Assembly: GCF_009749385.1 (NCBI RefSeq)
Contig: NZ_WBIN01000001.1
Coordinates: 310,001 to 374,000, forward strand
Source of the DNA: Agromyces allii
Lineage (GTDB): Bacteria; Actinomycetota; Actinomycetes; Actinomycetales; Microbacteriaceae
Reading direction: 5' to 3'
DNA: 64,000 nucleotides
The translations under genes were made by a program, and so were the position numbers. Within the stretch, counting starts at the first letter, position 1. The number at the start of each line of letters is the position of its first letter. Shown here one piece after another: positions 1-64,000 of the stretch. The notes under the pieces were generated by a model. The model had not been told where the DNA came from. It worked only from the letters and a program-made list of their open reading frames with translations, and searched no databases.

Positions 1-278
1 CAGGCGGGCCCGCGCCCGGTGCCGACGCGTTCGCCGTTGAAGAGCATGGGTGCGGCGTCCTTCTCGCCCTCGCCGATGACGACGACGCCGTCGAAGTTGA
101 CCGTGCCGAGGAAGGCCCGCATCGCGTCGACCGCCGCCCCGTCGGCGCCGAGCTTGTCGCCCCGGCCGATCCACGGGTAGGAGCGGATCGCCGCGGCCTC
201 GGTGGCCCGCACGAGCTCGAGCGCGATGTTGCGGTCGGGGTGCAGGTAGAGGCTGTCGTCGGCAGGGGTCATCATCAT
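1..278 (-). CDS. glpX: Class II fructose-1,6-bisphosphatase (GlpX), N-terminal part
   Basis: GlpX hydrolyses fructose 1,6-bisphosphate to fructose 6-phosphate in the cytoplasm, the committed step of gluconeogenesis. The 92 visible residues show the family N-terminus ([18 protein letters not shown], then [17 protein letters not shown]) and the metal-binding motif [11 protein letters not shown] near residues 73-83. The gene runs off the left edge, so the C-terminus is missing. Three ATG codons stand in a row; GGAGGA lies just upstream. The 143 bp before it hold a possible minus-strand -10 box TAGGCT at 355-360. A second GlpX-type gene sits directly upstream on the same strand. Family assignment is secure; which of the two is the physiological enzyme is inferred from the closer match here to the mycobacterial protein. 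Confidence 0.93.
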
Positions 279-421
279 CGGGCGGTCCTCCGGTTCGTGC
301 GCCCGGCCCTGGGTGGCCCCTCGCGAGCCGAGGATCCGTGCGCGCTCACCGTCAAGCCTAGGCACGCACCCCCGGTTTCCGGCGGTTTCTGCACGAACGT
401 GCGCCGAAAGAACCTCGATTC

Positions 422-1414
422 TTAACCGTCGGTCAAGGCCGCGGTCACCAGGTCGGGGCTCGCGCCGTCGACGAGCACGAGGTCGGTGCGGGCGGGCGCG
501 AGCGCGCACGCGGTCACGGGCGAGATCACGACGAGGGCGGATGCCGCGCACAGCCCGGCGAGCACGACTCCCCCGGCAGCGACGAACCCGCGCTCGACGG
601 CGTCCTCGGCGAGCCCGGCCGTGTAGCCGGCGATGCGCGCCCGCTCGGCCGTGGACTGCGGCGCGAACCGTGCGAGCATGACGCCGCCGTGCGCGCGCAC
701 GATCGCCGCCTCGAGCAGCCCCTCGGGCGCACCGCCGATGCCGAGGAGCAGGTCGAGGTCGCCGCCGGGCGCTGCGGCGTGCGCGACGCGCTCGATGTCG
801 CCGTGCTCGAACTCGTGCAGGCTCGCACCCGCCGCGCGCACGGCGTCGGCGACGGCCGTGTTGCGGGGGCGCCGCTGCACCGCGACGCGCAGAGTCGAGA
901 CCGGGCGCCCGTGCGCGGCCGCGAGCCGGTCGAGGTTCTCCTCGACGGAGCGGTCGAGCGCGAGGCCCGGGTCCGCGCTCGCCGCGCCCGCGGGCCGCTC
1001 GGACCTGGCGTGCACGAGCTTGTCGAGGTAGAAGGCCGGCCCGGGGTCGGCGTACGAGCCGCGCGGGGCGACCGCGAGGATCGCCATGGCGCCCGGGCGC
1101 CCCGCCGCCGCGAGACGAGTCCCGTCGACCGGGTCGACGACGAGGTCGAGCGCCGGGCCGACGCCGGTGCCGAACCGCTCGCCCGGGTGCAGCATGGGCG
1201 CGTCGTCCTTCTCGCCCTCGCCCGAGACCACGCGGATGTCGGCGGGCACGCCCGCGAGCGCGATGCGCAGCGCGTCGACGGCCGCAGCGTCGACCGCGTC
1301 GCCGTCGCCGCCGCCCACGAGCGGCCGGGCCGCATCGGCCGCGGCACGCACGGCCACGAGCAGTGCGTCGCGCAGGGCGGAATCGAACGGCGAGGGCGGG
1401 GAGAACCGGGTCAC
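422..1414 (-). CDS. GlpX-family phosphatase, second paralogue
   Basis: A 330-residue protein with the class II fructose-bisphosphatase fold. The metal and phosphate motifs are present: [11 protein letters not shown] at about 65-75 and [10 protein letters not shown] at 91-100, followed by the GAMAILAV strand. It starts at GTG; a nearby ATG is out of frame. It lies immediately upstream of the canonical glpX on the same strand, separated by 143 bp, so it is probably an old tandem duplicate. Its N-terminus and C-terminus are richer in Ala, Arg and Asp than glpX. Substrate may be fructose bisphosphate, sedoheptulose bisphosphate or another sugar bisphosphate; the sequence does not decide. Confidence 0.82.
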
Positions 1415-1462
1415 CGACCCATCATCGCCCAGCCCGCGGCATCCGCACGCCTCGTGACGCAC

Positions 1463-1491
1463 GTGAGCACTCCTCGCGACCTCGGTAGACT
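1463..1491 (+). promoter_or_regulatory. Probable fba promoter
   Basis: GTGAGC (1463-1468) and TAGACT (1486-1491) are separated by 17 bp. A start near 1498 would precede the Shine-Dalgarno GAAGGAG (1514-1520) and make the in-frame upstream ATG at 1496 unusable. Confidence 0.5.
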
Positions 1492-1525
1492 CAGCATGAA
1501 TCCTGTTGCCTTCCGAAGGAGCGCC

Positions 1526-2557
<1,032 letters not shown>

Positions 2558-2568
2558 GGCGCGATCAG

Positions 2569-3204
2569 ATGACGCACGACGAGGCCGCTCGCACGACCGG
2601 AGCCGCAGGGCAGGATTCGCCCACGACTCCCCCGATCGACGAGCGGCCTCGTCCGCGGTACGGCGAGTACGCGCCCGAAGGGTGGACCTGGCAACCGCCG
2701 GTCGACCCGAAGGCGGTTCCGGATGCCGCGGCCGACGCCGCGACGACCGGACCGTCCGCGGCATCCGCCCCCGCACCCCTCGCGGCCCCCGTCGCGGGGC
2801 AGGCGACCGCCGCCGCCCCGCCGCGGGATCGCCTCTGGACCATCGCGCTGCTCGTCTTCGGCGTGTTCGGCCTGTTCTACAACATCATGGCGCTCGTGCA
2901 GCTGCCCGCGACGGCGCTCGAATCGGCGAAGCTCTCGTCGCAGATGCTCGGCATCGACGGGCCGACCTCGTTCACGCCGGGCCCTGCGGTGCCGTCGATC
3001 ATCGCGACCGGCGTCGTGCTGCAGATCGTCCTCTGGCTCGGCGCCCTGCTCTGGTCGCGCGCACGCCTGCGCGCCCGGCGGCTCTCGTGGTGGATCCCGC
3101 TGGTCGCGGGCGTCGCCGCGTTCTTCGTCGTGACGATCGTCGGCATGCTCGTGTTCGCGAGCGACCCCGACTTCCTGGCCTCGCTCAGCACGGCGAGCGT
3201 CTAG
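2569..3204 (+). CDS. DUF6264-like membrane protein
   Basis: A 211-residue protein of unknown function. The first 85 residues are a Pro/Ala-rich cytoplasmic tail containing RYGEYAPEGWTWQPP, a pattern I associate with small Microbacteriaceae membrane proteins annotated DUF6264. Three hydrophobic segments follow, at about 88-108, 140-163 and 175-200. It begins 11 bp after the fba stop and is probably co-transcribed with it. It ends just before a strong bidirectional terminator. No catalytic motif is visible. The DUF number is recalled, not searched. Confidence 0.7.
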   Translation: MTHDEAARTTGAAGQDSPTTPPIDERPRPRYGEYAPEGWTWQPPVDPKAVPDAAADAATTGPSAASAPAPLAAPVAGQATAAAPPRDRLWTIALLVFGVFGLFYNIMALVQLPATALESAKLSSQMLGIDGPTSFTPGPAVPSIIATGVVLQIVLWLGALLWSRARLRARRLSWWIPLVAGVAAFFVVTIVGMLVFASDPDFLASLSTASV

Positions 3205-3240
3205 ACCCGGCCCTCCGGGCCGAGCACCCCGAGACAGCAC

Positions 3241-3275
3241 GACGCCCGCGGCAGAACGGATCTGCCGCGGGCGTC
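3241..3275. terminator. Bidirectional terminator hairpin
   Basis: A perfect 15-bp inverted repeat (3241-3255 and 3261-3275) with a 5-base loop lies between the convergent ends of the DUF6264-like gene and ispH. There is no long T-run, as is usual in high-GC actinobacteria. Confidence 0.8.
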
Positions 3276-3299
3276 GGTGTCTCTGTCGACGGATGCCGA

Positions 3300-4379
3300 T
3301 CAGGCCGGCGGTGCCGTTCGGGTGCGCCCGCCGAGCGCGCGCTCCTCGCGGTTGCCGGCGAGATCGCGACGCAGCTCCTTCGGGAGCGAGAACATCAGGT
3401 CCTCTTCGGCGGTCTTCACCTCGGTGACCTCGCCGTAGCCGGCATCTGCCAGGGCCTCGAGCAGTTCGTGCACGAGCTCCTCGGGAACGGATGCGCCGCT
3501 CGTGACGCCGACCGTGGCGACGCCGTCGAGCCACTCCTGCTTGACCTCGCTCGCGTAGTCGACCCGGTAGGCGGCCTTCGCGCCGTACTCGAGGGCGACC
3601 TCGACGAGGCGAACGCTGTTCGAGGAGTTCGCCGAGCCGACGACGATCACGAGCTCGGCATCCTGCGCGACCTTCTTGATCGCGACCTGGCGGTTCTGGG
3701 TGGCGTAGCAGATGTCGTCGCTGGGCGGGTCGGCGAGGTTCGGGAACCGCTCGCGCAGGCGGCGCACGGTCTCCATGGTCTCGTCGACCGAGAGCGTCGT
3801 CTGCGAGAGCCACACGACCTTGTCGGGGTCGCGCACGTCGATGTTCGGCACGTCGTCGGGGCTGTTCACGATGGTGACGTGGTCGGGCGCCTCGCCCGCG
3901 GTGCCCTCGACCTCTTCGTGGCCCTCGTGGCCGATGAGCAGGATCTCGAAGTCGTCGCGTGCGAAGCGCACGGCCTCGCGGTGCACCTTCGTGACGAGCG
4001 GGCAGGTCGCGTCGATCGCGTGCAGCCCGCGGTCGGAGGCCGCGTTCACGACGGCCGGCGAGACGCCGTGCGCGCTGAAGACGATGTGGGCGCCCTCGGG
4101 CACCTCGTCGACCTCGTCGACGAAGATCGCGCCCTTGGCCTCGAGCTCGGTCACGACGTGGATGTTGTGCACGATCTGCTTGCGCACGTACACGGGGGCG
4201 CCGTAGTGCTCGAGGGCCTTCTCGACGGCGATCACGGCGCGGTCGACGCCCGCGCAGTATCCGCGAGGGGCGGCGAGCAGCACGCGCTTGTGTCCGAGGA
4301 CGGGGATATCCTTGAGCCGGCCGCGCAGGCCGGGCACGCGGGGCATGCCGAGGCCGATTCTGGGGGTGGTGGTCGTCAC
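3300..4379 (-). CDS. ispH: 4-hydroxy-3-methylbut-2-enyl diphosphate reductase
   Basis: IspH (LytB) is the iron-sulfur enzyme for the last step of the MEP isoprenoid pathway, giving IPP and DMAPP. 359 residues. The three cluster cysteines are in their usual contexts: GYCAGVDRA (Cys42), DATCPLV (Cys126) and ICYATQNRQ (Cys224). Substrate-binding HNIHVV, SAHG and SANSSNS motifs are also present. The start is GTG at 4379: a TAGACT box ends exactly six bases upstream, pointing to a leaderless mRNA, and no Shine-Dalgarno precedes the ATG eleven codons further in. It is divergent from xseA, the arrangement I recall from M. tuberculosis. Confidence 0.96.
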
Positions 4380-4385
4380 CCGCCC

Positions 4386-4391
4386 AGTCTA
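4386..4391 (-). promoter_or_regulatory. -10 box for leaderless ispH
   Basis: TAGACT on the minus strand, six bases before the GTG at 4379. No convincing -35 is visible. Confidence 0.5.
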
Positions 4392-4476
4392 CGTGCGCAC
4401 GGCTGGGCACCCGCCGACCACGGCCCCGTCGATCGCACGAACCCGAGCCACGCCGACCGAACCTGAGGAGAACACG

Positions 4477-5805: not shown

Positions 5806-5808
5806 AAT
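5803..5808 (+). promoter_or_regulatory. Possible internal -10 box for xseB
   Basis: TAGAAT overlaps the xseA stop codon and ends seven bases before the ATG at 5816. This favours that ATG as a leaderless start over the ATG at 5807, which lies partly inside the box. Confidence 0.35.
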
Positions 5809-7563: not shown

Positions 7564-8979
7564 TTGGTCGACAACACCGCCGACTACCGCATCGAACACG
7601 ACACGATGGGCGAGGTGCGGGTTCCCGCGGCCGCCCTGTACCGTGCGCAGACCCAGCGCGCCGTCGAGAACTTCCCGATCTCGGGCAAGGGACTCGAGCC
7701 GGCCCAGATCGCCGCGCTCGCGCGCATCAAGAAGGCCGCCGCTCAGGCCAACGCCCAGCTCGGCGTGCTCGACGGCGCGATCGCCGACGCGATCGTCGCG
7801 GCCGCCGACGAGGTCATCGCCGGCACCCACGGGTTCGTCGAGCACTTCCCGGTCGACACGTACCAGACCGGCTCGGGCACCTCGTCGAACATGAACATGA
7901 ACGAGGTCCTCGCGACCGTCGCGACGCAGAAGCTCGGTGCCGAGGTGCACCCGAACGACCACGTCAACGCGTCGCAGTCCTCGAACGACGTGTTCCCGAC
8001 CTCGGTGCACATCGCCGTCACCGCCGCGCTCATCGACGACCTGATCCCCGCGCTCGACCACCTCGCCGTGGCCCTCGAGGCCAAGGCCGAGGCGTGGGCC
8101 GAGGTCGTCAAGTCGGGCCGCACGCACCTCATGGACGCCACGCCCGTCACGCTCGGCCAGGAGTTCGGCGGCTACGCCCGCCAGATCCGCCTTGGCATCG
8201 AGCGCGTGCGCACCGCCCTCCCCCGCGTGGCCGAGGTCCCGCTCGGCGGCACCGCCGTCGGCACCGGCATCAACACCCCCGCCGGCTTCCCGCAGCTCGT
8301 CATCGAGATCCTGCAGCGCGAGACCGAGTTGCCGATCACCGAGGCGGCCGACCACTTCGAGGCGCAGGCCAACCGCGACGGCCTTGTCGACGCATCGGGC
8401 GCGCTGCGCACGATCGCCGTGAGCCTCACGAAGATCTGCAACGACATCCGCTGGATGGGCTCCGGCCCCAACACGGGTCTCGGCGAGCTGCACATCCCCG
8501 ACCTGCAGCCCGGCTCGTCGATCATGCCCGGCAAGGTCAACCCCGTCATCCCCGAGGCGGTGCTCATGGTCGCCGCGCGCGTCATCGGCAACGACGCCAC
8601 GGTCGCCTGGGCCGGCGCCTCGGGCTCGTTCGAGCTCAACGTGCAGATCCCCGTGATGGGCACCGCACTGCTCGAGTCGATCCGCCTGCTCTCGAACGCG
8701 TCGCGCGTGCTCGCCGACAAGACCGTCGACGGCCTCGAGGCCAACCTCGAGCGCCTCACGGCCCTGGCGGGCATGTCGCCGTCGATCGTCACGCCGCTCA
8801 ACAAGCTCATCGGCTACGAGGCCGCGGCGAAGATCGCCAAGCACTCGGTGAAGCAGGGCATCACCGTGCGCGAGGCCGTCGTCGACCTCGGCTACGTCGA
8901 GCGCGGCGACCTCACCGAGGAGCAGCTCGACACCGCGCTCGACCTGCTCTCGATGACCCGCCCGCCCCAGGCGAAGTAG
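7564..8979 (+). CDS. fumC: Class II fumarate hydratase
   Basis: Converts fumarate to L-malate in the TCA cycle; iron-independent homotetramer. 471 residues. Superfamily signature [11 protein letters not shown] is at about 318-328. Other active-site segments: [29 protein letters not shown], and [17 protein letters not shown]. The start codon is TTG at 7564, supported by GGAAGGA nine bases upstream and by no better candidate. The gene ends before a hairpin terminator made from two inverted copies of the GGATGCC motif. Confidence 0.96.
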
Positions 8980-9002: not shown

Positions 9003-9039
9003 CGGATGCCTCGGGCCGCACGTCGGCCCGAGGCATCCG
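9003..9039 (+). terminator. Terminator after fumC, built from the GGATGCC motif
   Basis: A 15-bp perfect stem (9003-9017 with 9025-9039) and 7-base loop. Each arm ends in GGATGCC or its complement, so the terminator carries two inverted copies of the dispersed motif. Confidence 0.75.
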
Positions 9040-9148: not shown

Positions 9149-9775
9149 ATGGATCACGGAGGCACGCCCATCACGTCGGTCGCCGAGCTCGAGGAGCTCG
9201 TCGGCACTCCGCTGCCGGCCGTTCGCGACAAGTCCCGACCGTTCCTGCACGACATCGACCGGCTGTGGCTCGAGGCCTCGCCGCTCTGCTTCGTGGCGAC
9301 GGCCGATGCCGCCGGCAACCAGGACGTCTCGCCCAAGGGCGATCCGGCCGGATTCGCGATCGTGCTCGACGAGCAGACGATCGCGATCCCCGAGCGCCCC
9401 GGCAACCGGCGGGCCGACGGGTTCCACAACCTGCTCGAGAACCCGCGCATCGGCCTCATCTTCGTGATTCCGGGGCGCGGCGACACGCTGCGCGTGAACG
9501 GCACGGCGCGCGTCCTGCGCGACGCCCCGTACGCCGAGCACATGCGGGTACGCGGTCACGTGCCGAGCCTCGTCGTCGAGGTGGCCGTCGAGGAGGTCTT
9601 CTCGCACTGCTCGAAGGCGTTCCTGCGCTCGCAGGCCTGGGTTCCCGAGAGCTGGCACCCCGATGCTGCGCCGCCCCGTGCGGTCATCGCGAAGGCGCTC
9701 GAGCGCCCCGACGACGACCTCGCCGTCCTCGAGGAGTACTACGGCCCGTCGTACGCCGAGAAGATCTACGGCTGA
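9149..9775 (+). CDS. MSMEG_1061-type FMN-dependent PPOX-fold flavoprotein
   Basis: A 208-residue split-barrel flavoprotein of the pyridoxamine-phosphate-oxidase superfamily. Diagnostic pieces: SPLCFVATADAAGNQDVSPKGD (read as two strands at about 46-68), IPERPGNRRADGFHNLLENPRIGLIF (about 89-114) and GDTLRVNGTARVL. Proteins of this subfamily bind FMN or F420; the substrate is unknown. The C-terminus has HCSKAFLRSQAW, also typical. The gene appears to be transcribed alone and leaderless, ending in a strong hairpin shared with convergent phoH. Confidence 0.85.
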   Translation: MDHGGTPITSVAELEELVGTPLPAVRDKSRPFLHDIDRLWLEASPLCFVATADAAGNQDVSPKGDPAGFAIVLDEQTIAIPERPGNRRADGFHNLLENPRIGLIFVIPGRGDTLRVNGTARVLRDAPYAEHMRVRGHVPSLVVEVAVEEVFSHCSKAFLRSQAWVPESWHPDAAPPRAVIAKALERPDDDLAVLEEYYGPSYAEKIYG

Positions 9776-9788: not shown

Positions 9789-9831
9789 CGGCGGATGCCG
9801 GTGGCAGGTCGCCCGCCACCGGCATCCGCCG
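9789..9831. terminator. Bidirectional terminator built from the GGATGCC motif
   Basis: A 17-bp perfect inverted repeat (9789-9805 and 9815-9831) with a 9-base loop between two convergent genes. Both arms contain the dispersed motif (9793-9799 and 9821-9827). Confidence 0.75.
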
Positions 9832-9862: not shown

Positions 9863-11242
9863 TCAGGCGAGCTCGTTGCCGTCGAGCATCTCGCTGACGA
9901 GCGCCGCGATGGCCGAGCGCTCCGATCGCGTGAGCGTGATGTGCGCGAACAGCGGGTGCCCCTTCAGCGTCTCGATGACGGAGGCGACGCCGTCGTGGCG
10001 ACCGACGCGCAGGTTGTCGCGCTGCGCGACATCGTGGGTGAGCACGACGCGGGAGTTCTGCCCGATGCGCGAGAGCACGGTGAGCAGCACGTTGCGTTCG
10101 AGCGACTGGGCTTCGTCGACGATGACGAACGCGTCGTGCAGCGAGCGCCCGCGGATGTGCGTGAGCGGCAGCACCTCGAGGATGCCGCGGTCGACGACCT
10201 CGTCGAGCACGTTGTCGGAGACCACCGAGCCGAGCGTGTCGAAGACCGCCTGCCCCCAGGGGTTCATCTTCTCGCCCTGGTCGCCGGGGAGGTACCCGAG
10301 CTCCTGCCCGCCGACCGCGTAGAGCGGGCGGAACACCATGATCTTCTTGTGCTGCTGCCGTTCGAGCACGGCCTCGAGTCCGGCGCAGAGCGCGAGCGCC
10401 GACTTGCCGGTGCCGGCTCGTCCGCCGAGCGAGAGGATCCCGATCTCGGGGTCGAGCAGCAGGTCGATCGCGAGGCGCTGCTCGGCCGAGCGGCCGTGCA
10501 GGCCGAACACGTCGCGGTCGCCGCGCACGAGCCGCACCTCGCGCTCCCCCACGACGCGGGCGAGCGCCGACCCGCGATCCGAGTGGATGACGAGCCCGGT
10601 GTTCACGGGCACGCCCTCGACCTCGGCGACCGAGAGGTGCTCGTGCTCGTAGAGCTTGGCCATGTCGTTGGAGCCGAGCGTGAGCTCGCTCATGCCCGTC
10701 CAGCCGGAGTCGAGCGCGAGCTCGGCGCGGTACTCCTGCGCGTCGAGGCCGATCGAGGCCGCCTTGACGCGCAGCGGGAGGTCCTTGGAGACCACGGTCA
10801 CGGCGACGCCGTCGTTCGCGAGGTTCGCGGCGCACGCGAGGATGCGCGTGTCGTTGTCGTTCAGCTGCAGGCCGCTCGGCAGCACGGACATGCTGGAGTG
10901 GTTGAGCTCGACACGCAGCGATCCGCCCTCGCCGACCGGGATCGGGAAGTCGAGCCGCTCGTGCTCGATGCGGAGTTCGTCGAGGATCCGCAGCGCCTGG
11001 CGCGCGAAGTAGCCGATCTCGGGGTCGTTGCGCTTGGCCTCGAGCTCCGTGATCACGATCACCGGCAGCACGACCGAATGCTCGGCGAACCGGAACAGCG
11101 CCTTCGGATCCGACAGCAGAACCGAGGTGTCCAACACGTAGGTGCGCTCGTCCTGCGCGACGCCGTGGGGCGATGCGGCATCGGGTCGCTGCTGGCGACC
11201 GGTGGACGTTGCGTCGGACTGGGAGGTTTCGAGTGAGGCCAC
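9863..11242 (-). CDS. PIN-PhoH fusion protein (PhoH2 type)
   Basis: A 459-residue protein combining an N-terminal PIN ribonuclease domain (about 33-165; acidic residues in YVLDTS, ITELE and VSKDLPLR) with a C-terminal PhoH ATPase (about 240-455). The Walker A motif is GRAGTGKSA (274-282) and the Walker B is VIVDEAQ. PhoH2 proteins in mycobacteria are reported to be RNA helicase/ribonucleases, sometimes with a small antitoxin-like partner; I see no such partner gene upstream. Start is GTG at 11242 with GGAG six bases before it. A GAAA-tetraloop hairpin sits just upstream of that site. The 292 bp up to the next gene hold no coding sequence I can support. Confidence 0.92.
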
Positions 11243-45241: not shown

Positions 45242-48200
45242 CTAGGCCGCGCCGCCCGCCGCGGGCGTCGCGCCCGTGGACTCGGCCGCTTCGGGCAGCG
45301 GGAAGATCGCGGTGATGAGGTTCGACACCCACTCGATGAGGTCGGCATCGGCCGGCATCTCGCCGCCGCGCACCGGGAACGGCACGAGGATCACGTCGCT
45401 TGCGGCCACGAGCTTCGCGCCGGGGTACATGCGCTCGAGGCGCACGCGCCGTGAATCGGGGATGTTCGCCGGGCCGATGCGGAGCTTGGTGCCCGTGGCG
45501 ATCACGTCGGAGAGCCCGGCGAACTGGGCGAGCCGTCGGAGCCTCGAGACCGCGACGAGGTTCTGCACGGCCTCGGGCGGGGCGCCGTAGCGGTCGACGA
45601 GCTCGTCGAGCACCTGGCCGATCTGCTCGTCTTTCGCGGCCGGACCGCTCGCCGCGGAGAGCTTCTGGTACGCCTCGAGGCGCAGGCGCTCGGAGTCGAC
45701 GTAGTCCTCGGGGATGTGCGCGTCGATGGGCAGCTCGAGCCGCAGCTCGGTCTGCCCCTCGGCCACGTCGCCGCGGAAGGTCGAGACGGCCTCGCCGATC
45801 ATGCGCAGGTACAGGTCGAAGCCGACGCCGGCGATGTGCCCGGCCTGCTCGCCGCCGAGCAGGTTGCCCGCGCCGCGGATCTCGAGGTCTTTCAGCGCCA
45901 CCTGCATGCCGGAGCCGAGGTCGTTGTTGGCCGCGATCGTCGAGAGTCGGTCGTGCGCGGTCTCGCTGAGCGGCTTCGCCGGGTCCCACAGGAAGTACGC
46001 GTAGGCGCGCTCGCGCCCACGGCCGACGCGGCCGCGCAGCTGGTGCAGCTGGCTGAGGCCGTACTTGTCGGCGCGGTCGATGATGATCGTGTTCGCGTTG
46101 GAGATGTCGAGCCCGGTCTCGATGATGGTCGTCGAGACGAGCACGTCGAACTTTCGCTCCCAGAAGTCGTTCACGATCTGCTCGAGCACATGCTCGTTGA
46201 GCTGGCCGTGCGCGACCGCGATGCGCGCCTCGGGCACGAGCTCCGACAGCTGCGCCGCGACCCGGTTGATCGACGAGACGCGGTTGTGCACGAAGAAGAC
46301 CTGCCCCTCGCGGAGCATCTCGCGGCGGATGGCGGCCGCGACCTGCTGCTCGGAGTAGGGGCCGACGAAGGTGAGGATCGGGTGCCGGTCTTCGGGCGGG
46401 GTCGCGAGGGTGGACATCTCGCGGATGCCCGTGACGGCCATCTCGAGGGAACGCGGGATCGGCGTCGCGCTCATCGCGAGGATGTCGACGTTGGTCTTGA
46501 GCTTCTTCAGCGCGTCCTTGTGCTCGACGCCGAACCGCTGCTCCTCGTCGATGATGACGAGGCCCACGTCTTTGAACACCACCTTCTCGGTGAGGATGCG
46601 GTGCGTGCCGATGACCATGTCGACCGTGCCGTCGCCGAGGCCGGCGATGGTCTCGCGCGCCTCCTTGTCGGTCTGGAAGCGGCTGAGGGCGCGCACGTGC
46701 ACGGGGAACCCGGCGAAGCGCTCGGTGAAGGTCTCGAGGTGCTGCTTCACGAGCAGCGTCGTCGGCACGAGCATCGCGACCTGCTTGCCGTCTTGGATGG
46801 CCTTGAACGCCGCACGCACCGCGACCTCGGTCTTGCCGAAGCCGACATCGCCCGCGAGCAGGCGGTCCATGGGGATCGGCCGCTCCATGTCGGCCTTGAT
46901 CTCGTCGATGGTCTGCACCTGGTCGGGCGTCTCGGTGAACGGGAACGCCTCTTCGAGCTCGTGCTGCCACGGGGTGTCGGGGCCGAACGCGTGGCCCTTC
47001 GCCGCCATGCGCGCCGAGTAGAGCTTCACGAGCTCGACGGCGATGTCGCGCACGGCCTTGCGGGCGCGGCCCTTGGCCTGCGCCCAGTCGCTGCCGCCCA
47101 TCTTGGAGAGCGAGGGAGCCTCGCCGCCGACGTACCGCGAGAGGAGGTCGAGCTGGTCGGTCGGCACGAACAGGCGGTCGCCCGCCTGGCCGCGCTTGGA
47201 GGCCGCGTACTCGAGCACGAGGTACTCGCGCACGGCCTTGGGCTGCTGGGCGATGCCCGCCCTGCGGCTCGGGCCGGTGGGGCGGCTGCCGGTCGCGACC
47301 TCGCGCTGCACCATCTCGACGAACCGGCCGATGCCGTGCGTCTGGTGCACGACGAAGTCGCCGGCCTTGAGCTGCAGGGGGTCGACGACGTTGCGCCGCC
47401 GCGGCGCGAGCTTGGCGCTGCGGCGCGCCTCGTAGCCTGCAGCGCGCCCGTAGAACTCGGCCTCGGAGAGGAGCCCCAGCTTGACCTCGGGCACCTCGAA
47501 TCCACGTGCGGCGCCCGCGCGGACGAGGTACGCGACACCCGGCTCGAGCTCGTCGGGCACGGCCTCGACGGTGCGCGCCGCGAACCCGGCCTCGGAGAGC
47601 ACGTCGCGGGCGCGTTCGACGAGCCCCTGGCCCTCGGATGCCACGACGAGGCTCCAGCCGTCGCGCAGGCGCTGCCCGACGTGCTCGACCGCACCCGCGA
47701 CGTTGCCCGCGAAGCTCGGCATGGCGTCGGCCGCCACGCGCACGTACTCGGATGCGAGGCGGGACGCGGACTCGGCCGCCTCACCGCCGGCCGACGCCGC
47801 GACGACGGCCGCGGCATCGCCCATGTCGAAGTTCGTGAAGGTCCACCAGGCGCGGTTCGGGTCGGGTTCGCCCGGCGCGCTGAACAGCACGGCCTCACGG
47901 AACTCGCGCACCGTGAGGAAATCGCCCGAGGCGAGGTCGATCGGCGCGTCGGCGCCGGCCGTGGCCGCGCTCCAGGCCGCACCGAGGAACTCGCGGTTGG
48001 TCTCGGCGAGGCTGACGGCACGACCCGAGACGCGCTCGGGGTGGAGCACGGCGACGGCCGCGCCGACCGGCAGGTAGTGCGCGAACGAGACGAGGCGTTC
48101 GAGCAGCGCGGGCGCCAGCGACTCCATGCCCTCGACGGGGATGCCCTCGGCGACCTTCTCGAGCATGCCGGCCATGCTCGGGAACTCGTGCACCATCTCG

Positions 48201-48952
48201 CGGGCGCGCTGGCGCACCGACGGCGTGAGCAGCAGTTCACGGCTGGGCGCGAGCTCGACGCGCTCGATGACGTCGGGCAGCGAGCGCTGGTCGGCGACCG
48301 AGAACGCGCGGAGCTCTTCGACCTCGTCGCCGAAGAACTCGACGCGCACCGGGTGGTCGGCGGTCGGGGGGAACACGTCGAGGATGCCGCCGCGGAGGGC
48401 GAACTCGCCACGCCTCGAGACCATGTCGACGCGCGCGTACGCGAGGTCGACGAGCGTGCGCGAGATCTCGGGCAGGTCGTAGCCGCGACCGCCCGGCACG
48501 AGTTCGATGGGCGCGTGGGCGGTGAGGTTGTCGGCGAGCGGTTGCAGGGCGGCGCGCACCGAGGCGACCACGACAAGCGGATGCCGCGAGCCGGCCGCCT
48601 GCCAGTCGTGCATGCGTCGGAGGGCGTGCAGCCTGCGGCCGACGGTCTCGGCCGACGGGCTGAGGCGTTCGTGCGGCAGGGTCTCCCATGCGGGGAACTC
48701 GAGCACCTCTGCGCCGTCGAGGTACGGCGCGATCGCGGTGCGAACCTGTTCGCCCTCGCGGCTCGTCGCCGTGATGACGAGCAGCGCCGGCGCGAGCCCG
48801 GCCTCGGTGCGGCGCTGCAGCAGGCCGGCCAGCAGCGGCGCGTCGATGCCGTCGGGCGCCGAGAAGTCGGCGCTCCGCAGGGCTTCGCCCAGGGCGCGGT
48901 CGATCGTGGAGGCGCGCGAAAGCGCCGTGTTCAAGCCCTGCAGAATCACCAT
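45242..48952 (-). CDS. mfd: Transcription-repair coupling factor Mfd
   Basis: 1,236-residue ATP-dependent translocase that removes RNA polymerase stalled at lesions and recruits UvrA. The N-terminal UvrB-like region spans about 1-480; the CarD-like RNA-polymerase-interacting domain follows (GDFVVHQTHGIGRFVEMV, about 520). The RecG-like motor has Walker A GDVGFGKTEVA (about 705), DEEQRFG (about 800), and LHQLRGRVGRGRERAYAYF. A C-terminal TRCF domain ends the protein. A TAGACT box lies six bases before the GTG at 48949 but only three before the ATG at 48952, so translation may begin at the second codon. The long plus-strand open frame across this gene is a shadow. Confidence 0.95.
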   Translation of the reverse strand: MVILQGLNTALSRASTIDRALGEALRSADFSAPDGIDAPLLAGLLQRRTEAGLAPALLVITATSREGEQVRTAIAPYLDGAEVLEFPAWETLPHERLSPSAETVGRRLHALRRMHDWQAAGSRHPLVVVASVRAALQPLADNLTAHAPIELVPGGRGYDLPEISRTLVDLAYARVDMVSRRGEFALRGGILDVFPPTADHPVRVEFFGDEVEELRAFSVADQRSLPDVIERVELAPSRELLLTPSVRQRAREMVHEFPSMAGMLEKVAEGIPVEGMESLAPALLERLVSFAHYLPVGAAVAVLHPERVSGRAVSLAETNREFLGAAWSAATAGADAPIDLASGDFLTVREFREAVLFSAPGEPDPNRAWWTFTNFDMGDAAAVVAASAGGEAAESASRLASEYVRVAADAMPSFAGNVAGAVEHVGQRLRDGWSLVVASEGQGLVERARDVLSEAGFAARTVEAVPDELEPGVAYLVRAGAARGFEVPEVKLGLLSEAEFYGRAAGYEARRSAKLAPRRRNVVDPLQLKAGDFVVHQTHGIGRFVEMVQREVATGSRPTGPSRRAGIAQQPKAVREYLVLEYAASKRGQAGDRLFVPTDQLDLLSRYVGGEAPSLSKMGGSDWAQAKGRARKAVRDIAVELVKLYSARMAAKGHAFGPDTPWQHELEEAFPFTETPDQVQTIDEIKADMERPIPMDRLLAGDVGFGKTEVAVRAAFKAIQDGKQVAMLVPTTLLVKQHLETFTERFAGFPVHVRALSRFQTDKEARETIAGLGDGTVDMVIGTHRILTEKVVFKDVGLVIIDEEQRFGVEHKDALKKLKTNVDILAMSATPIPRSLEMAVTGIREMSTLATPPEDRHPILTFVGPYSEQQVAAAIRREMLREGQVFFVHNRVSSINRVAAQLSELVPEARIAVAHGQLNEHVLEQIVNDFWERKFDVLVSTTIIETGLDISNANTIIIDRADKYGLSQLHQLRGRVGRGRERAYAYFLWDPAKPLSETAHDRLSTIAANNDLGSGMQVALKDLEIRGAGNLLGGEQAGHIAGVGFDLYLRMIGEAVSTFRGDVAEGQTELRLELPIDAHIPEDYVDSERLRLEAYQKLSAASGPAAKDEQIGQVLDELVDRYGAPPEAVQNLVAVSRLRRLAQFAGLSDVIATGTKLRIGPANIPDSRRVRLERMYPGAKLVAASDVILVPFPVRGGEMPADADLIEWVSNLITAIFPLPEAAESTGATPAAGGAA

Positions 48953-49072: not shown

Positions 49073-49804
49073 GTGATCACTGCCGCCGCCGACGGATCCG
49101 CCCTCGGAAATCCCGGCCCCGCCGGGTGGGCCTGGTACGTCGACGACGACCGCTGGGGCGCAGGTGGCTGGAAGCACGCGACGAACAACCAGGGCGAGCT
49201 GAAGGCCGTGCTCGAACTCTTCCGCGCGACCGCGCACCTCGACGACGAGCTCCTCGTGCTGTGCGACAGCCAGTACGTCATCAACTGCATCACCAAGTGG
49301 ATGGCCGGCTGGAAGCGCAAGGGCTGGCGCAAGGCCGACGGCAAGCCCGTGCTGAACGTCGAGCTGCTGAAGGAGCTCGACGACGAGCTTGTCGGCCGCC
49401 GCTACCGCTTCGAATGGGTCAAGGGCCACGTCGGCCACCCGATGAACGAGGCCGCCGACACGCGCGCCCGCGCCGTCGCCGAGGCGTACCGCAGCGGCAA
49501 GCCGGTGCCGTCGGGCCCGGGCTGGCGCGACGAGGTCGGCGGGGCGGATGCCGCGGCATCCGCCGGACCGATCGACGACGTCGAACTCGAGCTCGACGCG
49601 GCATCCGTCATCGACGCGTCCGTGCCGGTCGTCGCCGACGCGGCCGCAGACGCCGACGACGACGCGCTGTTCTCGTTCGACGACGCGCCCGACGCCTGGC
49701 ACCAGCTCACGGTCGAGCTCTCGACCGAGGAGCACGACCGGCTGCACCGACTCGCCCGCGCCGCCGGCACCTCGCCCGAGGAGTACCTGCGCAGCCTGAT
49801 CTGA
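49073..49804 (+). CDS. Ribonuclease HI family protein with C-terminal extension
   Basis: Cleaves the RNA strand of RNA-DNA hybrids. 243 residues. The catalytic acids are Asp7 (ADGSALGNPGPAG), Glu42 (NNQGELKAV), Asp65 (LCDSQYVI) and Asp129 (NEAADTRAR), with His119 in KGHVGHP. The catalytic domain ends near 150; a linker rich in Ala and Asp leads to a ribbon-helix-helix-like tail, HQLTVELSTEEHDRLHRLARAAG. Start GTG at 49073 with CTGGAGGA upstream; a TACGAT box at 49034-49039 is a possible promoter. Divergent from mfd. Confidence 0.9.
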   Translation: MITAAADGSALGNPGPAGWAWYVDDDRWGAGGWKHATNNQGELKAVLELFRATAHLDDELLVLCDSQYVINCITKWMAGWKRKGWRKADGKPVLNVELLKELDDELVGRRYRFEWVKGHVGHPMNEAADTRARAVAEAYRSGKPVPSGPGWRDEVGGADAAASAGPIDDVELELDAASVIDASVPVVADAAADADDDALFSFDDAPDAWHQLTVELSTEEHDRLHRLARAAGTSPEEYLRSLI

Positions 49805-51284: not shown

Positions 51285-51478
51285 GATGTTTCTCCTTGCG
51301 GGCGCAGTCGGCCCAGATCGTGTGTCTGATGTCTTCAACTCGAACGCCGCTGCATGCACGATGCGCGGATGCGTGAGGAAATAGCCGTGGAGCCTGCTCC
51401 CACCGCGTCGATCACGGATGCCGCATGCCGCCCGATCTCTCGGTTGGCCGGGGCATCCCTCGCCGAAGTTCGCAGGCA

Positions 51479-55581: not shown

Positions 55582-55714
55582 AAGATTCGAGCGAGCGGAT
55601 GCCGGTGGCGCGCGTCCGGGCGCGACGAAGCACGCCGTGTCGCACGGCGTGAACGACGGTGGCCGGATGCCGCGTGCGGGCGTCAGCCCTCGGCGCTCCC
55701 CCGAGCGCGGCCCG

Positions 55715-58722: not shown

Positions 58723-58774
58723 CCGCGTCGACGACGAGCGGTCGTCGACGACCTCTCAGCAACAGCGCGCAACG

Positions 58775-58797
58775 GTGAGCCTCGCTCACAGTACGCT
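58775..58797 (+). promoter_or_regulatory. gnd promoter with palindromic operator
   Basis: A perfect palindrome, GTGAGC-CTC-GCTCAC (58775-58789), ends two bases before TACGCT (58792-58797). A near-identical element precedes the -10 of eno. Confidence 0.5.
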
Positions 58798-58834
58798 TGA
58801 GACATCCCCACCCAACTTCACGAGGAGTGTGTTC

Positions 58835-60292: not shown

Positions 60293-60312
60293 CCCGCCCT
60301 CGCGGGTAACCT

Positions 60313-60338
60313 TGGCCCCGGGCGGAAGCCCGGGGCCA
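60313..60338 (+). terminator. Terminator after gnd
   Basis: An 11-bp perfect stem (60313-60323 with 60328-60338) with a GGAA tetraloop. Confidence 0.8.
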
Positions 60339-60396
60339 CGTGCGTTCCAGCCGGGCCGTCCCGGGCTCCGGCCGGACCGACGACGAGTGAGGGTGC

Positions 60397-60753
60397 ATGC
60401 GCAAGCCGAACTGGCAGAGCGAGGGCGAAGACCCCGACTACCGCTTCACGCTGGCGAACGAACGCACCTTCCTCGCCTGGATCCGCACGGCGCTGGCGCT
60501 GCTCGCGGGCGGAGTGCTGCTCTTCGAGTTCGCCCAGCAGATCGGACCGCGCGTCGTCGTGCTGATCCTCGCGCTCGGACTCGCCGTCGTCGCAGCCGTG
60601 CTCGGCGGTCTCTCGTATGTCCGCTGGCGCGGCAACGAGATCGCCATGCGCACCGGCAGGCCGCTCCCCCGGAGCCTCGCGATCCCCCTCCTCTCGACCA
60701 TCGCCCTCCTGGCGGCGGCCGTGATCGCCGTGCTGATCCTGGTCTCCGGCTGA
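60397..60753 (+). CDS. YidH/DUF202 membrane protein
   Basis: A 118-residue, three-helix membrane protein. DUF202 signature: RFTLANERTFLAWIRTALALLAGGVLLF (about 16-44), then helices at about 50-70 and 92-115. Function unknown. ATG at 60397 with GAGGGTG upstream. First of three adjacent small membrane-protein genes with gaps of seven bases and an ATGA overlap, so one operon. Confidence 0.88.
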   Translation: MRKPNWQSEGEDPDYRFTLANERTFLAWIRTALALLAGGVLLFEFAQQIGPRVVVLILALGLAVVAAVLGGLSYVRWRGNEIAMRTGRPLPRSLAIPLLSTIALLAAAVIAVLILVSG

Positions 60754-60760
60754 GCCGCGC

Positions 60761-61102
60761 ATGTCCGCCGACACGAGCGCAGCAGTGCCCCGCGATCCCG
60801 GGCTCCAACCCGAACGCACCTCGCTGGCCTGGAGCCGCACCGGGCTCGCGATCGCCGTGAACGCCGTGCTCGCGCTGCGCAGCGGGTTCAGCTCCGAACA
60901 GCCGGCCCTCGCCGTCGCCGGAGTCGCGCTCTTCGTGCTCGCCGCGGTCGCGGTCGCGCACGGCACCGTGCGTCGGCGACAGCTCGATGCCCGGCACGAG
61001 CCCGTGCCGCCCTCCCCCGTGGTGATGCTCGGCGTCGCCGCCACCGTCCTGCTCGCGGCCCTCGCGGGCATCATCTCCATCTCGATCGAGGCCACCCGAT
61101 GA
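60761..61102 (+). CDS. Second DUF202 membrane protein
   Basis: A 113-residue protein with the DUF202 motif LQPERTSLAWSRTGLAIAVNAVLALR (about 16-41) and helices at about 48-67 and 86-108. YidG-like: in E. coli YidH and YidG are also adjacent. Function unknown. The stop overlaps the next start by four bases (ATGA). Confidence 0.85.
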   Translation: MSADTSAAVPRDPGLQPERTSLAWSRTGLAIAVNAVLALRSGFSSEQPALAVAGVALFVLAAVAVAHGTVRRRQLDARHEPVPPSPVVMLGVAATVLLAALAGIISISIEATR

Positions 61103-61461
61103 CCGACGACCATCCCGAACTCGCGGGTTACGAGCCCGTCGACCCCCCCCGACGCCCCGGACGCCAGCGCGCCATGCGCATCGCGGTGATGCTGGCACTC
61201 GCCGGCATGGTGCTCCCGATCGTGCTGTCCACGTTCTCGGTCGCGACCTCGACCGCCCGTTCGTCCTGCGCGACGTTCGCACTCGCTGCCGCGGGCGCCA
61301 CGGGCGGTGAGCTGTCGACGGATGCCCCGTTCGAGCTGTTCGCCGACGGCGGGCCGGGCTGGCAGTGCTACGTCACGACCGAGAACGGCTCGCGCCACCA
61401 CATCGCCAACTTCGGCCTCTTCCCGGCCGCCCCGCGCTACGGCGTCGGCACGCCGACCTGA
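61099..61461 (+). CDS. Hypothetical membrane-anchored protein
   Basis: A 120-residue protein of unknown function. A Pro/Arg-rich start is followed by one transmembrane helix (about 28-48) and an outside domain of about 65 residues with two cysteines (RSSCATFALAAAG and WQCYVTTENGS), which could form a disulfide. Translated from an ATG overlapping the DUF202 stop. No homologue recognised. Confidence 0.6.
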   Translation: MTDDHPELAGYEPVDPPRRPGRQRAMRIAVMLALAGMVLPIVLSTFSVATSTARSSCATFALAAAGATGGELSTDAPFELFADGGPGWQCYVTTENGSRHHIANFGLFPAAPRYGVGTPT

Positions 61462-61484
61462 TCGAGGTCGGAGCCCGCGAGGGG

Positions 61485-62036
61485 TCAGTCGGCGTCGCGG
61501 TGCGGTGCCTCAGCGCCCGCAACCTCGGTCTCGGGCTCGTGCTCGACCTCGGGCTCGGCCTCGAAGAACACGCGCTTGTAGGAGCGCCCGTCTGGCAGCG
61601 TCACGGTGCGGGCCTCGACGAGGCCGCGGTTCACGCGCTGGTAGATCGCGTTCGGCGTCACCCCGAGCCGTTTCGCAGCCTCGGAGACGCTCTCGCCCGG
61701 CAGGTCGGTTGGCACGCTCGACGGGCGTTCGCGCTTGCGACGCCGGCTCGCCTCCTGGCGGTCGGCGATCGTGTCGTCGTCGCCGGCCCAGCGGTACTTG
61801 GCCGCCGAGGCGCTGAGCCCGGCGGCGTCGGCGATGTCGTCCCAGCTCGCGCCGGTGTCGACCGCCTCGCGCGCGGCCTCGAGCGCGGCGGGGTCTGCCT
61901 CGAGCGCCGCCACGAGCGAGCGGATGCCGCGCAGCCGGTCGAGCGGCGGAACCCGGCCGGTCGATCCGTGCCCGCCGTCGAGGGCCGCGAGCGCCGCGAG
62001 GGCGGCCGCGGCATCCGGAGACAGGAACGACGACAC
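61485..62036 (-). CDS. Two-HTH DNA-binding protein
   Basis: A 183-residue protein, no named family recalled. Two helix-turn-helix segments: 64-83 (SWDDIADAAGLSASAAKYRW) and 115-139 (ESVSEAAKRLGVTPNAIYQRV), the second followed by a basic beta-wing-like stretch RTVTLPDGRSYKRVFF and an acidic tail. The linker (RRRKRERPS) is basic. Arrangement suggests a DNA-binding regulator or nucleoid-associated protein. GTG start at 62036 lies 14 bases after the fadD stop with CGGAG upstream, so it is in the prs-fadD operon. Confidence 0.7.
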   Translation of the reverse strand: MSSFLSPDAAAALAALAALDGGHGSTGRVPPLDRLRGIRSLVAALEADPAALEAAREAVDTGASWDDIADAAGLSASAAKYRWAGDDDTIADRQEASRRRKRERPSSVPTDLPGESVSEAAKRLGVTPNAIYQRVNRGLVEARTVTLPDGRSYKRVFFEAEPEVEHEPETEVAGAEAPHRDAD

Positions 62037-62050
62037 GGGCGTGCTCCGGC

Positions 62051-63751
62051 TCAGCCGGCCTGGAGGCGGTTGCGCACCTCGCGGCGGAGCACCTTGCCGA
62101 TGAGCGAACGCGGCAGTTCGTCGACCTCGACGATGCGCTTGGGCACCTTGTACGGCGTGAGTCGCTCGCGCGCGAACTCGCGGATCGCGGCCTCGTCGAG
62201 GCGCTGGCCGTCGGCGAGCACGACCGCGGCGACGACCTGCTCGCCCGAGTGCTCGTCGGGCAGGCCGACGACCGCGACGTCCTCGATGCCGGGGTAGGTG
62301 CGCAGCGCCTCCTCGACCTCGGTGGGCGCGACGTTGAAGCCGCCCGTGATGATGAGCTCCTTGATGCGGTCGACGACGTGCACGAAGCCCTCGGCGTCGA
62401 TCGAGACGATGTCGCCCGTGCGGAACCAGGGGGTGCCGCCGTCGGGATCGGCGACGAACACGGCGTCGGTCTCTTCGGGCTTCTTCCAGTACCCCTGGAA
62501 CACCTGCGGGCCGCGCACGACGAGCTCGCCCTCGCCGCCGGCCTCGACGTCGGCGGTGGGGTTCTCGGGGTCGACGACGCGGCACTCGGTCGACGGGAGC
62601 GGCAGGCCGATCGTGCCGGCCTTGCGATTGCCGGCGACCGGGTTCGCCGAGATGACGGGCGAGCACTCCGACAGGCCGTAGCCCTCGACGAGCACGCCAC
62701 CGGTCGCGGCCTCCCAGGGTTCGACGACCGCGGGGGTGAGCGCCATCGCGCCCGAGATCGCGATCTGGATGCCCTCGAGCGAGACGCCCTTGGCCGCGGC
62801 CGCCTTGGTCAGGCGGTCGTAGATCGGCGGCACGGCGGGCAGGAAGGTCGGCGGACGCTTCTTGATGACCGGCAGCACGAGGTCGGGGTCGAACTTCGGG
62901 AACAGCACGAGGCGCGCGCCCATGCTCATCGCGAACGTGAGGCAGAGCGTGAGCCCGTAGGCGTGGAACATCGGCAGCACCGCGTAGACCACGCAGTTGC
63001 CGCGCTCGATCGTCGGCACCCAGGCGCGCGACTGCGCCGCATTCGCGAGCAGGTTGAGGTGGGTGAGCGTCGCACCCTTGGGCGAACCGGTGGTGCCGCT
63101 CGTGTACTGGATGAGCGCGACATCGGATGCCTCGGGGGCGACGATGTGCGCGTCGATGCGGTCGGCGTCGACGAGGTCGGCCCACGTCGCGGTGCCCTTC
63201 GCGCCCGAGGTCAGGGCCGCGCGGGACTCGCGGGCCTTGGCGATCGGCAGCTTGAGCGCGGTGCGCGTGAGGAACGGCATCGCCCGCGTGACGTCGACCG
63301 AGACGACGTGCTTGACGCCGAGGTCTGCGGGGAAGGCGAGGACCGTCTCGACGACGTTGTCCCATGCGATCGCGAACCGCGCGCCGTGGTCCTCGAACTG
63401 GTGTCGCAGCTCTCGGGGCGTGTAGAGCGGGTTGTGCTCGATGACGATCGCGCCGAGTCGCAGCACGGCGTAGAACGCGACGATGTGCTGCGGGCAGTTC
63501 GGCAGCACGATGGCCACCGTGTCGCCCTTCTGCACGCCGAGCAGGCGCAGCCCCTCGGCCGCGCGCTCGACCTGCTCGCCGAGCTCGGCGTAGGTGGTCT
63601 CACGGCCGAAGAACTCGAGGGCGACGCTCGCCGGGTGCTCGGCGACCGAGGTCGCGAGCAGGTCGTAGAGCGAGCCCTCCGGCAGTTCGAGGTCGTGGGG
63701 CACGCCTTCGGCGTACCCGGCGAGCCACGGTCGCGGGGTCGTGATCGTCAT
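62051..63751 (-). CDS. Long-chain fatty acid-CoA ligase
   Basis: A 566-residue AMP-forming acyl-CoA synthetase. The P-loop YTSGTTGSPKGATLTH (about 219-234), VEGYGLSECSPV, the ATP/hinge segment PWFRTGDIVSIDAEGFVHVVDRIKELIITGGFNV, and the catalytic Lys in RSLIGKVLRREV near the C-terminus are intact. Activates fatty acids for beta-oxidation or lipid synthesis. In M. tuberculosis the gene in this place is Pks16 (Rv1013), an acyl-AMP/CoA ligase. ATG at 63751 follows the prs stop after four bases. Confidence 0.93.
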   Translation of the reverse strand: MTITTPRPWLAGYAEGVPHDLELPEGSLYDLLATSVAEHPASVALEFFGRETTYAELGEQVERAAEGLRLLGVQKGDTVAIVLPNCPQHIVAFYAVLRLGAIVIEHNPLYTPRELRHQFEDHGARFAIAWDNVVETVLAFPADLGVKHVVSVDVTRAMPFLTRTALKLPIAKARESRAALTSGAKGTATWADLVDADRIDAHIVAPEASDVALIQYTSGTTGSPKGATLTHLNLLANAAQSRAWVPTIERGNCVVYAVLPMFHAYGLTLCLTFAMSMGARLVLFPKFDPDLVLPVIKKRPPTFLPAVPPIYDRLTKAAAAKGVSLEGIQIAISGAMALTPAVVEPWEAATGGVLVEGYGLSECSPVISANPVAGNRKAGTIGLPLPSTECRVVDPENPTADVEAGGEGELVVRGPQVFQGYWKKPEETDAVFVADPDGGTPWFRTGDIVSIDAEGFVHVVDRIKELIITGGFNVAPTEVEEALRTYPGIEDVAVVGLPDEHSGEQVVAAVVLADGQRLDEAAIREFARERLTPYKVPKRIVEVDELPRSLIGKVLRREVRNRLQAG

Positions 63752-63757
63752 CGGAGG

Positions 63758-64000
63758 TTACGCAGCCCCGTCGAACATGCTCGTGACCGAGCCGTCTTCG
63801 AAGACCTCGTGGATGGCGCGGGCGAGCAGCGGCGCGATGGGCAGGACCGTGAGGCGGTCCCAGCGCTTGTCTTCGGGAACCGGCAGCGTGTCGGTCACGA
63901 CGACGCGGTCGATGAAGTCGGACTGCAGGATCTCGGTCGCAGGCGGCGAGAACACGGCGTGCGTCGCGGCGACGACGACGCCGATGGCGCCGGCGTCCTT
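63758..64000 (-). CDS. prs: Ribose-phosphate diphosphokinase, C-terminal part
   Basis: Makes PRPP from ribose 5-phosphate and ATP. Only the last 80 residues are in the window: KDAGAIGVVVAATHAVFSPPA, then VVVTDTLPVPEDK, and ending ARAIHEVFEDGSVTSMFDGA. The VAATHAVFS and VTDTLP motifs are characteristic. The N-terminus and the usual upstream glmU would lie beyond the right edge. It heads the fadD and HTH genes on the same strand. Confidence 0.93.
   Translation of the reverse strand, partial: KDAGAIGVVVAATHAVFSPPATEILQSDFIDRVVVTDTLPVPEDKRWDRLTVLPIAPLLARAIHEVFEDGSVTSMFDGAA

Follow-up and report, generated by a model that had tools for sequence, protein, structure and literature searches.

A highly iterated GGATGCC word in Agromyces allii and its family: a candidate self-recognition sequence of the DNA-uptake type

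What keeps one short, asymmetric word at about one copy per kilobase in an actinobacterial genome? The question arises from the 64,000-nucleotide stretch of Agromyces allii DNA shown above (the window), in which GGATGCC occurs 81 times (48 copies on the plus strand and 33 on the minus strand), the octamer CGGATGCC 64 times (36 and 28), and CGGATGCCG 45 times (24 and 21). A preliminary description had counted about 60 copies of GGATGCC (about 33 plus and 28 minus); the excess that it reported stands, although its figure was too low. Its expectation of about 15 for the 7-mer from composition alone agrees with our order-0 value of 15.2, and order-3 and order-4 Markov models raise this to 19.5 and 40.2; for CGGATGCC, the three expectations are 5.4, 7.9, and 19.6. 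Both observed counts lie above the order-3 and order-4 expectations, and the claim of over-representation holds. CGGATGCC is also the top-deviating 8-mer of the window at Markov orders 2, 3, and 4. The second-ranking word, TAGAACTC, proved ordinary, occurring six times within called genes on the minus strand of the gene, as Glu-Phe-Tyr codons. The whole genome (4,360,803 bases) carries 4,113 copies of CGGATGCC (2,125 plus and 1,988 minus), a density of ~1 per kb, versus 230 copies of the reversed word (115 on each strand).

The extent of the unit was read from a 404-kb sample of the A. allii genome (the window plus stretches L001 to L005 and L009 to L020, with L006 to L008 left out) and from 20 stretches, each of 20 kb, of a congener with a closed genome, G021. 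Column composition around GGATGCC in the 404 kb yields the unit CGGATGCCGCG, present 215 times versus 1.5 expected by composition and 11.2 by an order-4 Markov model. The congener favors CGGATGCCTCG (136 versus 4.1, order-4 Markov), and the form shared by the two genomes is CGGATGCCnCG, with T replacing G at position 9 in the congener. Single-mismatch forms of this asymmetric, nonpalindromic 11-mer fall into distinct classes, although many of the counts are small. Changes at positions 2 to 6 reach at most 1.1 times expectation in 11 of 15 cases in A. allii and 10 of 15 in G021 (for example, CGGAcGCC at 0.41 and 0.36 and CGGAgGCC at 0.93 and 0.11, respectively), the highest ratios being 1.78 for CcGATGCC in A. 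allii and 1.88 for CGGATtCC in G021. For positions 1, 7, 8, and 11, every one of the 12 forms exceeds expectation in both genomes, by 1.4- to 16-fold, and forms altered at position 10 vary between 0 and 4 times expectation. CGGATGtCnCG is among the raised forms (45 versus 7.1 in A. allii genes and 26 versus 7.6 in G021), so position 7 tolerates T. For uptake-enhancing sequences, a drive graded by similarity was described in 2007 (PMC1939737).

This profile bears on an intracellular explanation in which a methyltransferase and methylation-linked mismatch repair would make and maintain the word. Such a repair model has been proposed for the highly iterated palindrome HIP1, which is described as frequent in cyanobacteria, with alternates that have methyltransferases of their own (PMC4390886), and the depletion of the neighbor CGGAcGCCnCG in both genomes is in its favor. 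However, that precursor and CGGATGCCnCG together sum to 231 copies in genes versus 44.6 expected, far more than a single mutational step, the conversion of one precursor, could supply. The asymmetry of the word and its near-miss profile make a HIP1-like origin quite unlikely, although no search for a methyltransferase was made.

Could codon use produce the word instead? Gene calls came from a simple script based on a codon model, so their borders are approximate, and the null was obtained by shuffling synonymous codons inside each gene. The genes in the 404 kb hold 319 copies of CGGATGCC versus 49.1 after shuffling (standard deviation 5.4, maximum 62 in 100 shuffles) and 162 copies of CGGATGCCGCG versus 8.0; those of G021 hold 283 copies of CGGATGCC versus 48.3 (maximum 60 in 30 shuffles) and 231 copies of CGGATGCCnCG versus 13.7. 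When the 437 coding copies of GGATGCC in the 404 kb are sorted by frame, G-GAT-GCC accounts for 145 versus 24.8 after shuffling and G-GCA-TCC for 123 versus 5.2; GGC-ATC-C (Gly-Ile) is barely raised (134 versus 103.5), and the remaining three frames sum to 35 versus 9.7. As the preliminary description had remarked, GCA and GAT are rare codons, at 6.0% of Ala and 11.2% of Asp codons. GAT is nevertheless used for Asp in 128 of 139 cases between xCG and GCC, compared with 474 of 6,157 elsewhere (preceding codon not ending in G and no GCC after), and GCA is used for Ala in 145 of 297 cases before TCC, compared with 824 of 16,011 before non-Ser codons. The neighboring codons are shifted as well, with xCG preceding 139 of 657 Asp-GCC pairs versus 166 of 6,850 other Asp codons, and intergenic DNA holds 62 copies of CGGATGCCGC versus 0.9 expected. 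Codon-pair or mutational bias alone, without any function, would fit the fact that, of the three main frames, two encode the common Asp-Ala and Ala-Ser pairs in synonymous variants, but the excess over the codon-shuffled null, the intergenic copies, and the xCG shift effectively refute this explanation, the least probable of all. The earlier suggestion that codon use is less likely than selection on the DNA itself is borne out by codon shuffling, codon context, and the near-miss profile: selection or drive acts on the word as DNA, and does so on both strands.

Intergenic DNA (42,344 bases of the 404 kb) contains 90 copies of CGGATGCC, or 21.3 per 10 kb versus 8.8 in genes, a 2.4-fold difference. 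Among A. allii gaps of at least 20 bp, the density is 53.2 per 10 kb between convergent genes (n = 53; 29 copies), 20.3 between tandem genes (n = 122), where 33 of 38 copies lie closer to the 3' end of the upstream gene, and 13.6 between divergent genes (n = 68; 18 copies). Inverted pairs of the type CGGATGCC-N0-30-GGCATCCG number 192 in the genome versus ~30 by random placement, and they are also frequent in G054 (197 versus 30), G021 (71 versus 18), G083 (73 versus 12), and G351 (66 versus 32), with none in G330 or G345. Among the pairs listed, many are the palindrome CGGATGCCGCGGCATCCG, and many others have inner parts that vary by site yet appear, by eye, self-complementary. The window contains the following features.

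1..64000: field of CGGATGCC, 64 copies, 48 in or overlapping called genes and 16 in 7,019 intergenic bases
9003..9039, plus strand: inverted pair forming a 16-bp hairpin (arms 9003-9010 and 9032-9039), downstream of a lyase/fumarase-like gene (7564-8979)
9792..9828, plus strand: inverted pair forming a long hairpin (arms 9792-9799 and 9821-9828) between convergent genes 9149-9775 (plus) and 9863-11242 (minus)
49545..49562: overlapping inverted pair, the palindrome CGGATGCCGCGGCATCCG (z -2.8), which recurs genome-wide
49600..49607, minus strand: additional intergenic CGGATGCC, adjoining the palindrome at 49545..49562
51415..51458, plus strand: intergenic hairpin with an imperfect inverted pair, the second arm (GGCATCC) lacking the outer G (z of only -1.8)
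2720..2767: inverted pair, within called gene 2569-3204, that comprises two full CGGATGCCGCG units
55596..55671, plus strand: two direct copies 68 bp apart, intergenic
45242..48952, minus strand: mfd-like gene, used as the anchor for fetching named relatives and outside the motif system

Among the four candidate window hairpins that were folded, those at 9003-9039 (-37.5 kcal/mol, z -7.6) and 9792-9828 (-43.5 kcal/mol, z -8.3) are strong. The preliminary description had called both of them terminators; the sites and hairpins are as it described, but neither is followed by a T-run, neither passed a terminator scan, and a terminator function would follow from position. If transcription-termination hairpins had turned into a repeated cassette, such hairpins and the contrast between convergent and divergent gaps would be accounted for. 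However, 319 of the 411 copies of CGGATGCC in the 404 kb lie inside called genes, and the listed pairs do not share their inner stems, so no cassette has been copied; we consider this origin very improbable.

The spacing of neighboring copies is near random (coefficient of variation 1.06 over 393 gaps in the 404 kb), apart from an excess of spacings below 30 bp, of which 23 are in opposite and 5 in the same orientation. Orientation within genes is near balanced (145 sense and 174 antisense), the two halves of the G021 chromosome show no polarity (102:91 and 81:77 by strand, in 400 of 3,800 kb with the origin not located), and the strands are equal over 249 Microbacteriaceae genomes (116,071:116,181). 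A binding site for a nucleoid, partition, or segregation protein would be consistent with this genome-wide dispersal and near-random spacing, and also with the dialects described below. In contrast to FtsK-type sites, the word shows no strand polarity, and the strong strand skew of FtsK-orienting polar sequences is absent from the G021 sample. parS sites are clustered; the copies here are not, and close inverted pairs are in excess. About one site per kilobase is also dense for such a role, which we regard as rather unlikely. Elsewhere in the A. allii genome, three head-to-tail CGGATGCC units in 7-bp steps occupy an intergenic position (C1 165506-165527; L009 5506-5527).

How widely is the word shared? 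A survey of 297 genomes of the order included 23 from Microbacteriaceae, and the ratio of word to reversed word reached at most ~4 in the other 274, which represent 19 families. Within Microbacteriaceae (249 genomes of 85 genera), the ratio ranges from 0.37 to 39 with a median of 4.1; it is at least 5 in 117 genomes, at least 10 in 64, and below 1.5 in 25. Strong enrichment is confined to Microbacteriaceae. Among named relatives, represented by 80 loci fetched via mfd, GGATGCC is shown in Agromyces, Microbacterium, Cryobacterium, Leifsonia, Humibacter, Salinibacterium, and Subtercola, among others, while Frigoribacterium, Frondihabitans, and Labedella have 1 to 4 copies of CGGATGCC per locus. 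The Mfd of the A. allii genome shares 90% identity, in the best segment, with that of Agromyces terreus, in agreement with its placement in this genus. Eight genomes from eight other families (20 to 40 kb each) contain 0 to 8 copies of CGGATGCC and no clear comparable word. In 40 kb of G007, from another family of the order (L206-L207), CTCGGTCAGT and TGACCTCGGT are strongly over-represented. When the window is compared with 22 Agromyces loci around mfd, its coding copies of CGGATGCC survive intact in 176 of 277 cases and 8-mers of matched composition in 15,387 of 49,372, in comparisons that share ancestry and are not independent and with controls that are unmatched for frame.

Some genera with little of the main word carry a different one. 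Frigoribacterium has GGAGGCGCGG (73 versus 2.5 in 177 kb, a count from eight orthologous loci that is inflated by shared descent). In the 249-genome set, GGAGGCGCGG exceeds its reversed control by 7.3- to 9.3-fold in 4 of 4 genomes of genus g128, by 3.6- to 6.7-fold in 4 of 4 genomes of g124, and by 2.8-fold in 1 of 4 genomes of g147; ratios above 2 in other genera rest on small counts. It thus replaces the main word in all sampled genomes of two motif-poor genera and in one genome of a third, and the 40 kb of g128 that were inspected have copies scattered along both strands. The evidence for dialects is clear for the position 9 variants and for GGAGGCGCGG; weaker signs of other words that share GGA, each from at most 40 kb, are GGATGCG in G315, CGGATCCG in G329, GCAGGATC in G342, GGATCCT in G299, and GGAGGCGG in G349. 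G311 (L148-L149) has only a GTGGGCG repeat of the GTGGGCGTGGGCGT type, with ~15 copies that perhaps form a local tandem array. G388 (genus g107, L023-L024), which lacks GGATGCC enrichment, has about 8 dispersed occurrences of the palindrome TCCGGATC/GATCCGGATC in 40 kb. Along with GGATGCC, a word that includes the HIP1 octamer, GGCGATCGCC, is raised in G351 (L036-L037; 12 versus 1.4) and in Humibacter albus (L065; 8 versus 0.8).

Does the word mark DNA as the cell's own? The segment from 120 to 160 kb of the A. allii contig C1 (L007-L008) holds 3 copies in 40 kb, has a lower GC fraction (0.64) and fewer called genes, and is probably a mobile island. Ten Microbacterium phage records (421,292 bases) contain 58 copies of CGGATGCC versus 25 of the reversed word. 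PaoPu and ManAs, both 17,362 bases long and almost identical in where the motif falls, account for 23 of the 58; Mendokysei and JuJu, phages of other hosts, have 1 versus 0 and 5 versus 0. GGATGCC is the top 7-mer of PaoPu (L194, MH045561; 24 versus 2.9 by an order-3 Markov model), and the genes of this phage hold 23 copies versus 9.9 after synonymous shuffling (maximum 17 in 500) and 12 copies of CGGATGCC versus 3.2. Publix and RoscoWindex have 24 and 23 copies of GGATGCC, while among small-phage controls two Arthrobacter phages have 3 and 3 and one Gordonia phage has 8 versus 8 for the control. The 17-kb genomes of PaoPu, Publix, and RoscoWindex have no annotated integrase, and PaoPu is also rich in GACATGTC palindromes. 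A megablast comparison of 24 kb of the window with phages gave no match.

These phages bring in a further intracellular alternative, a Chi-type signal in which the 11-mer would stop or redirect a DNA-end nuclease (AdnAB or another) and so shield self DNA, with carrier phages protected as well. Lineage-specific words on both strands, the few copies in the probable island, and the Paopuvirus copies, which exceed the shuffled null in PaoPu and the Arthrobacter phage counts, would all fit. On the other hand, the phage excess is modest, and RecC (PF04257) was found in 0 of 80 genomes by a search that was positive in an Escherichia coli control (AdnAB was not searched for). The absence of RecC and of polarity, in the G021 halves as in the equal strands of the 249 genomes, disfavors RecBCD-Chi. 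To our knowledge, neither a 140-fold enrichment of an 11-mer nor hairpin pairing is a feature of Chi, and we judge a signal of this type unlikely. Shuffling, polarity, RecC, and pair data thus disfavor single-precursor mutation, codon-pair bias, a copied terminator cassette, RecBCD-Chi, and polar segregation sites. Taken together, the three intracellular alternatives (nuclease signal, chromosomal-protein site, and repair-maintained word) deserve serious weight, somewhat short of an even chance.

The reading that we favor, with a probability of roughly 50%, is that CGGATGCCnCG may be a self-recognition word of the DNA-uptake-sequence type. It is favored because its length, density, presence on both strands, inverted pairs, apparent dialects around a core, scarcity in the island, and accompanying competence genes resemble the set of features known from the DNA uptake sequence (DUS) and the uptake signal sequence (USS). 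The likeness to Haemophilus and Neisseria sequences proposed in the preliminary description thus extends to length, density, inverted pairing, and apparent dialects, while some results, such as those for Paopuvirus, fit an intracellular role.

The A. allii genome encodes ComEA (SLBB plus HHH_3) adjoining ComEC (Competence plus Lactamase_B), beside a gene that by eye resembles holA. A Flp-type locus upstream of a topA-like gene includes T2SSE, T2SSF, and a DUF4244 pilin, with TadE and Tad matches below the cutoffs. Gene and open reading frame (ORF) listings, read by eye, place a topA-linked Flp locus in G021, G351, G330, G305, G345, and G388 as well, and DUF4244 and T2SSE were confirmed in G345. 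By eye, the N terminus of the A. allii pilin resembles the printed Flp pilin of Micrococcus luteus, a species for which Flp pili are reported to be required for transformation (PMC6370729). Rhodoluna lacicola and Aurantimicrobium photophilum, both reported to be naturally transformable (PMC11577799), belong by taxonomy to Microbacteriaceae. Gene content thus indicates that Microbacteriaceae possess means of DNA uptake, but these means do not track the motif. ComEC was accordingly dropped as a discriminator, as was the impression from a T2SSF search that motif-poor genomes lack the topA-linked Flp locus, which the ORF listings show in G345 and G388. The type IV pilus protein PilC is likewise no common factor, with strong matches only in G000 and G330 among seven genomes and not in motif-rich G021 and G351. 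A short ComEC (574 amino acids) was seen in motif-poor G388 and G495; other motif-poor genomes have a full-length protein.

Several observations weigh against an uptake role. All 80 genomes tested for ComEC have it, whether motif-poor or not, and the Flp locus occurs in motif-poor G345, G388, and G305. No receptor for the word was found, only candidate filament loci being located, and we know of no uptake bias for any motif-rich species. The 23 to 24 GGATGCC copies per 17 kb in Paopuvirus phages of Microbacterium are unexpected for a surface-uptake tag and hint at some intracellular advantage or process. One-mismatch forms are kept in 218 of 436 comparisons, which makes the retention of coding copies less striking, and intergenic copies are kept hardly better than controls (22 of 95 versus 1,114 of 6,702). 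Enrichment at gene 3' ends is strong in A. allii but weak in G021, where convergent, tandem, and divergent gaps have 18.1, 11.9, and 14.8 copies per 10 kb (14, 31, and 17 copies) and 19 of 31 tandem copies lie closer to the 3' end. No word of their own was found in 40 kb each of motif-poor G345, G340, G305, and G353, among six low genomes, or of G344, G069, and G328, among nine.

If the word does serve uptake, Microbacteriaceae would take up free DNA through ComEA/ComEC and a type IV filament, for which the topA-linked Flp locus is a candidate, and a surface protein would favor DNA that bears the word. As has been proposed for Neisseria and Haemophilus, permissive sites could then have acquired the word through recombination of the favored fragments, and alteration of the recognizing protein could give rise to dialects. 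More tentatively, and with less than even confidence, we suggest that Microbacteriaceae have an uptake-sequence system of independent origin in Actinomycetota, with GGA-core dialects between and within genera that are read by a Flp-type competence pilus, and that many soil and plant species may exchange genes sequence-selectively. According to one account (PMC12616744), sequence-selective DNA uptake is known from just two families, both proteobacterial. Among the open-licence PMC papers listed in searches, titles and abstract openings mention neither this word nor any uptake sequence from an actinobacterium; GGATGCC in PMC12089995 is part of a probe. Should uptake be confirmed, a large Gram-positive family with within-genus dialects would join these two as an unrelated third case, implying that the trait evolves repeatedly. 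The debate over drive versus function would become testable, a new kind of DNA-reading pilus protein would be indicated, and Agromyces and Microbacterium could be transformed with a practical tag. If the word is not an uptake sequence, a highly iterated asymmetric word with 140-fold enrichment has an agency still to explain.

How, then, does the word compare with known systems? Like Chi sites, which are lineage-specific over-represented words, it differs between lineages, but it is longer and far more enriched than Chi and is accompanied by neither polarity nor RecC. With cyanobacterial HIP1 and the alternate HIPs, it shares high iteration, alternates between taxa, and edge positions that are the most variable (PMC4390886). 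In contrast, the HIPs are described as palindromes tied to methyltransferases, and CGGATGCCnCG is no palindrome. The USS of Pasteurellaceae is unrelated in sequence. Its flanks bear AT tracts, whereas the flanks here do not. Both are enriched words of 9 to 12 nucleotides with a graded near-miss profile (PMC12616744, PMC1939737). The Neisseriaceae DUS belongs to another phylum and has another sequence, with a CTG core in place of GGA(TG) in a GC-rich word, and it is used by a type IV pilus with ComP, whereas the candidate here is a Flp/Tad-type pilus. If the uptake reading is right, this would nonetheless be an independent case of a known type of system. As described for DUS, a short word recurs in thousands of copies on both strands, with inverted pairs at gene ends and with words of sister genera that appear to be built on a conserved core (PMC3630211), and the reported use of DUS dialects to detect conjugative elements (PMC7371117) parallels the scarcity of the word in the probable island of A. 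allii.

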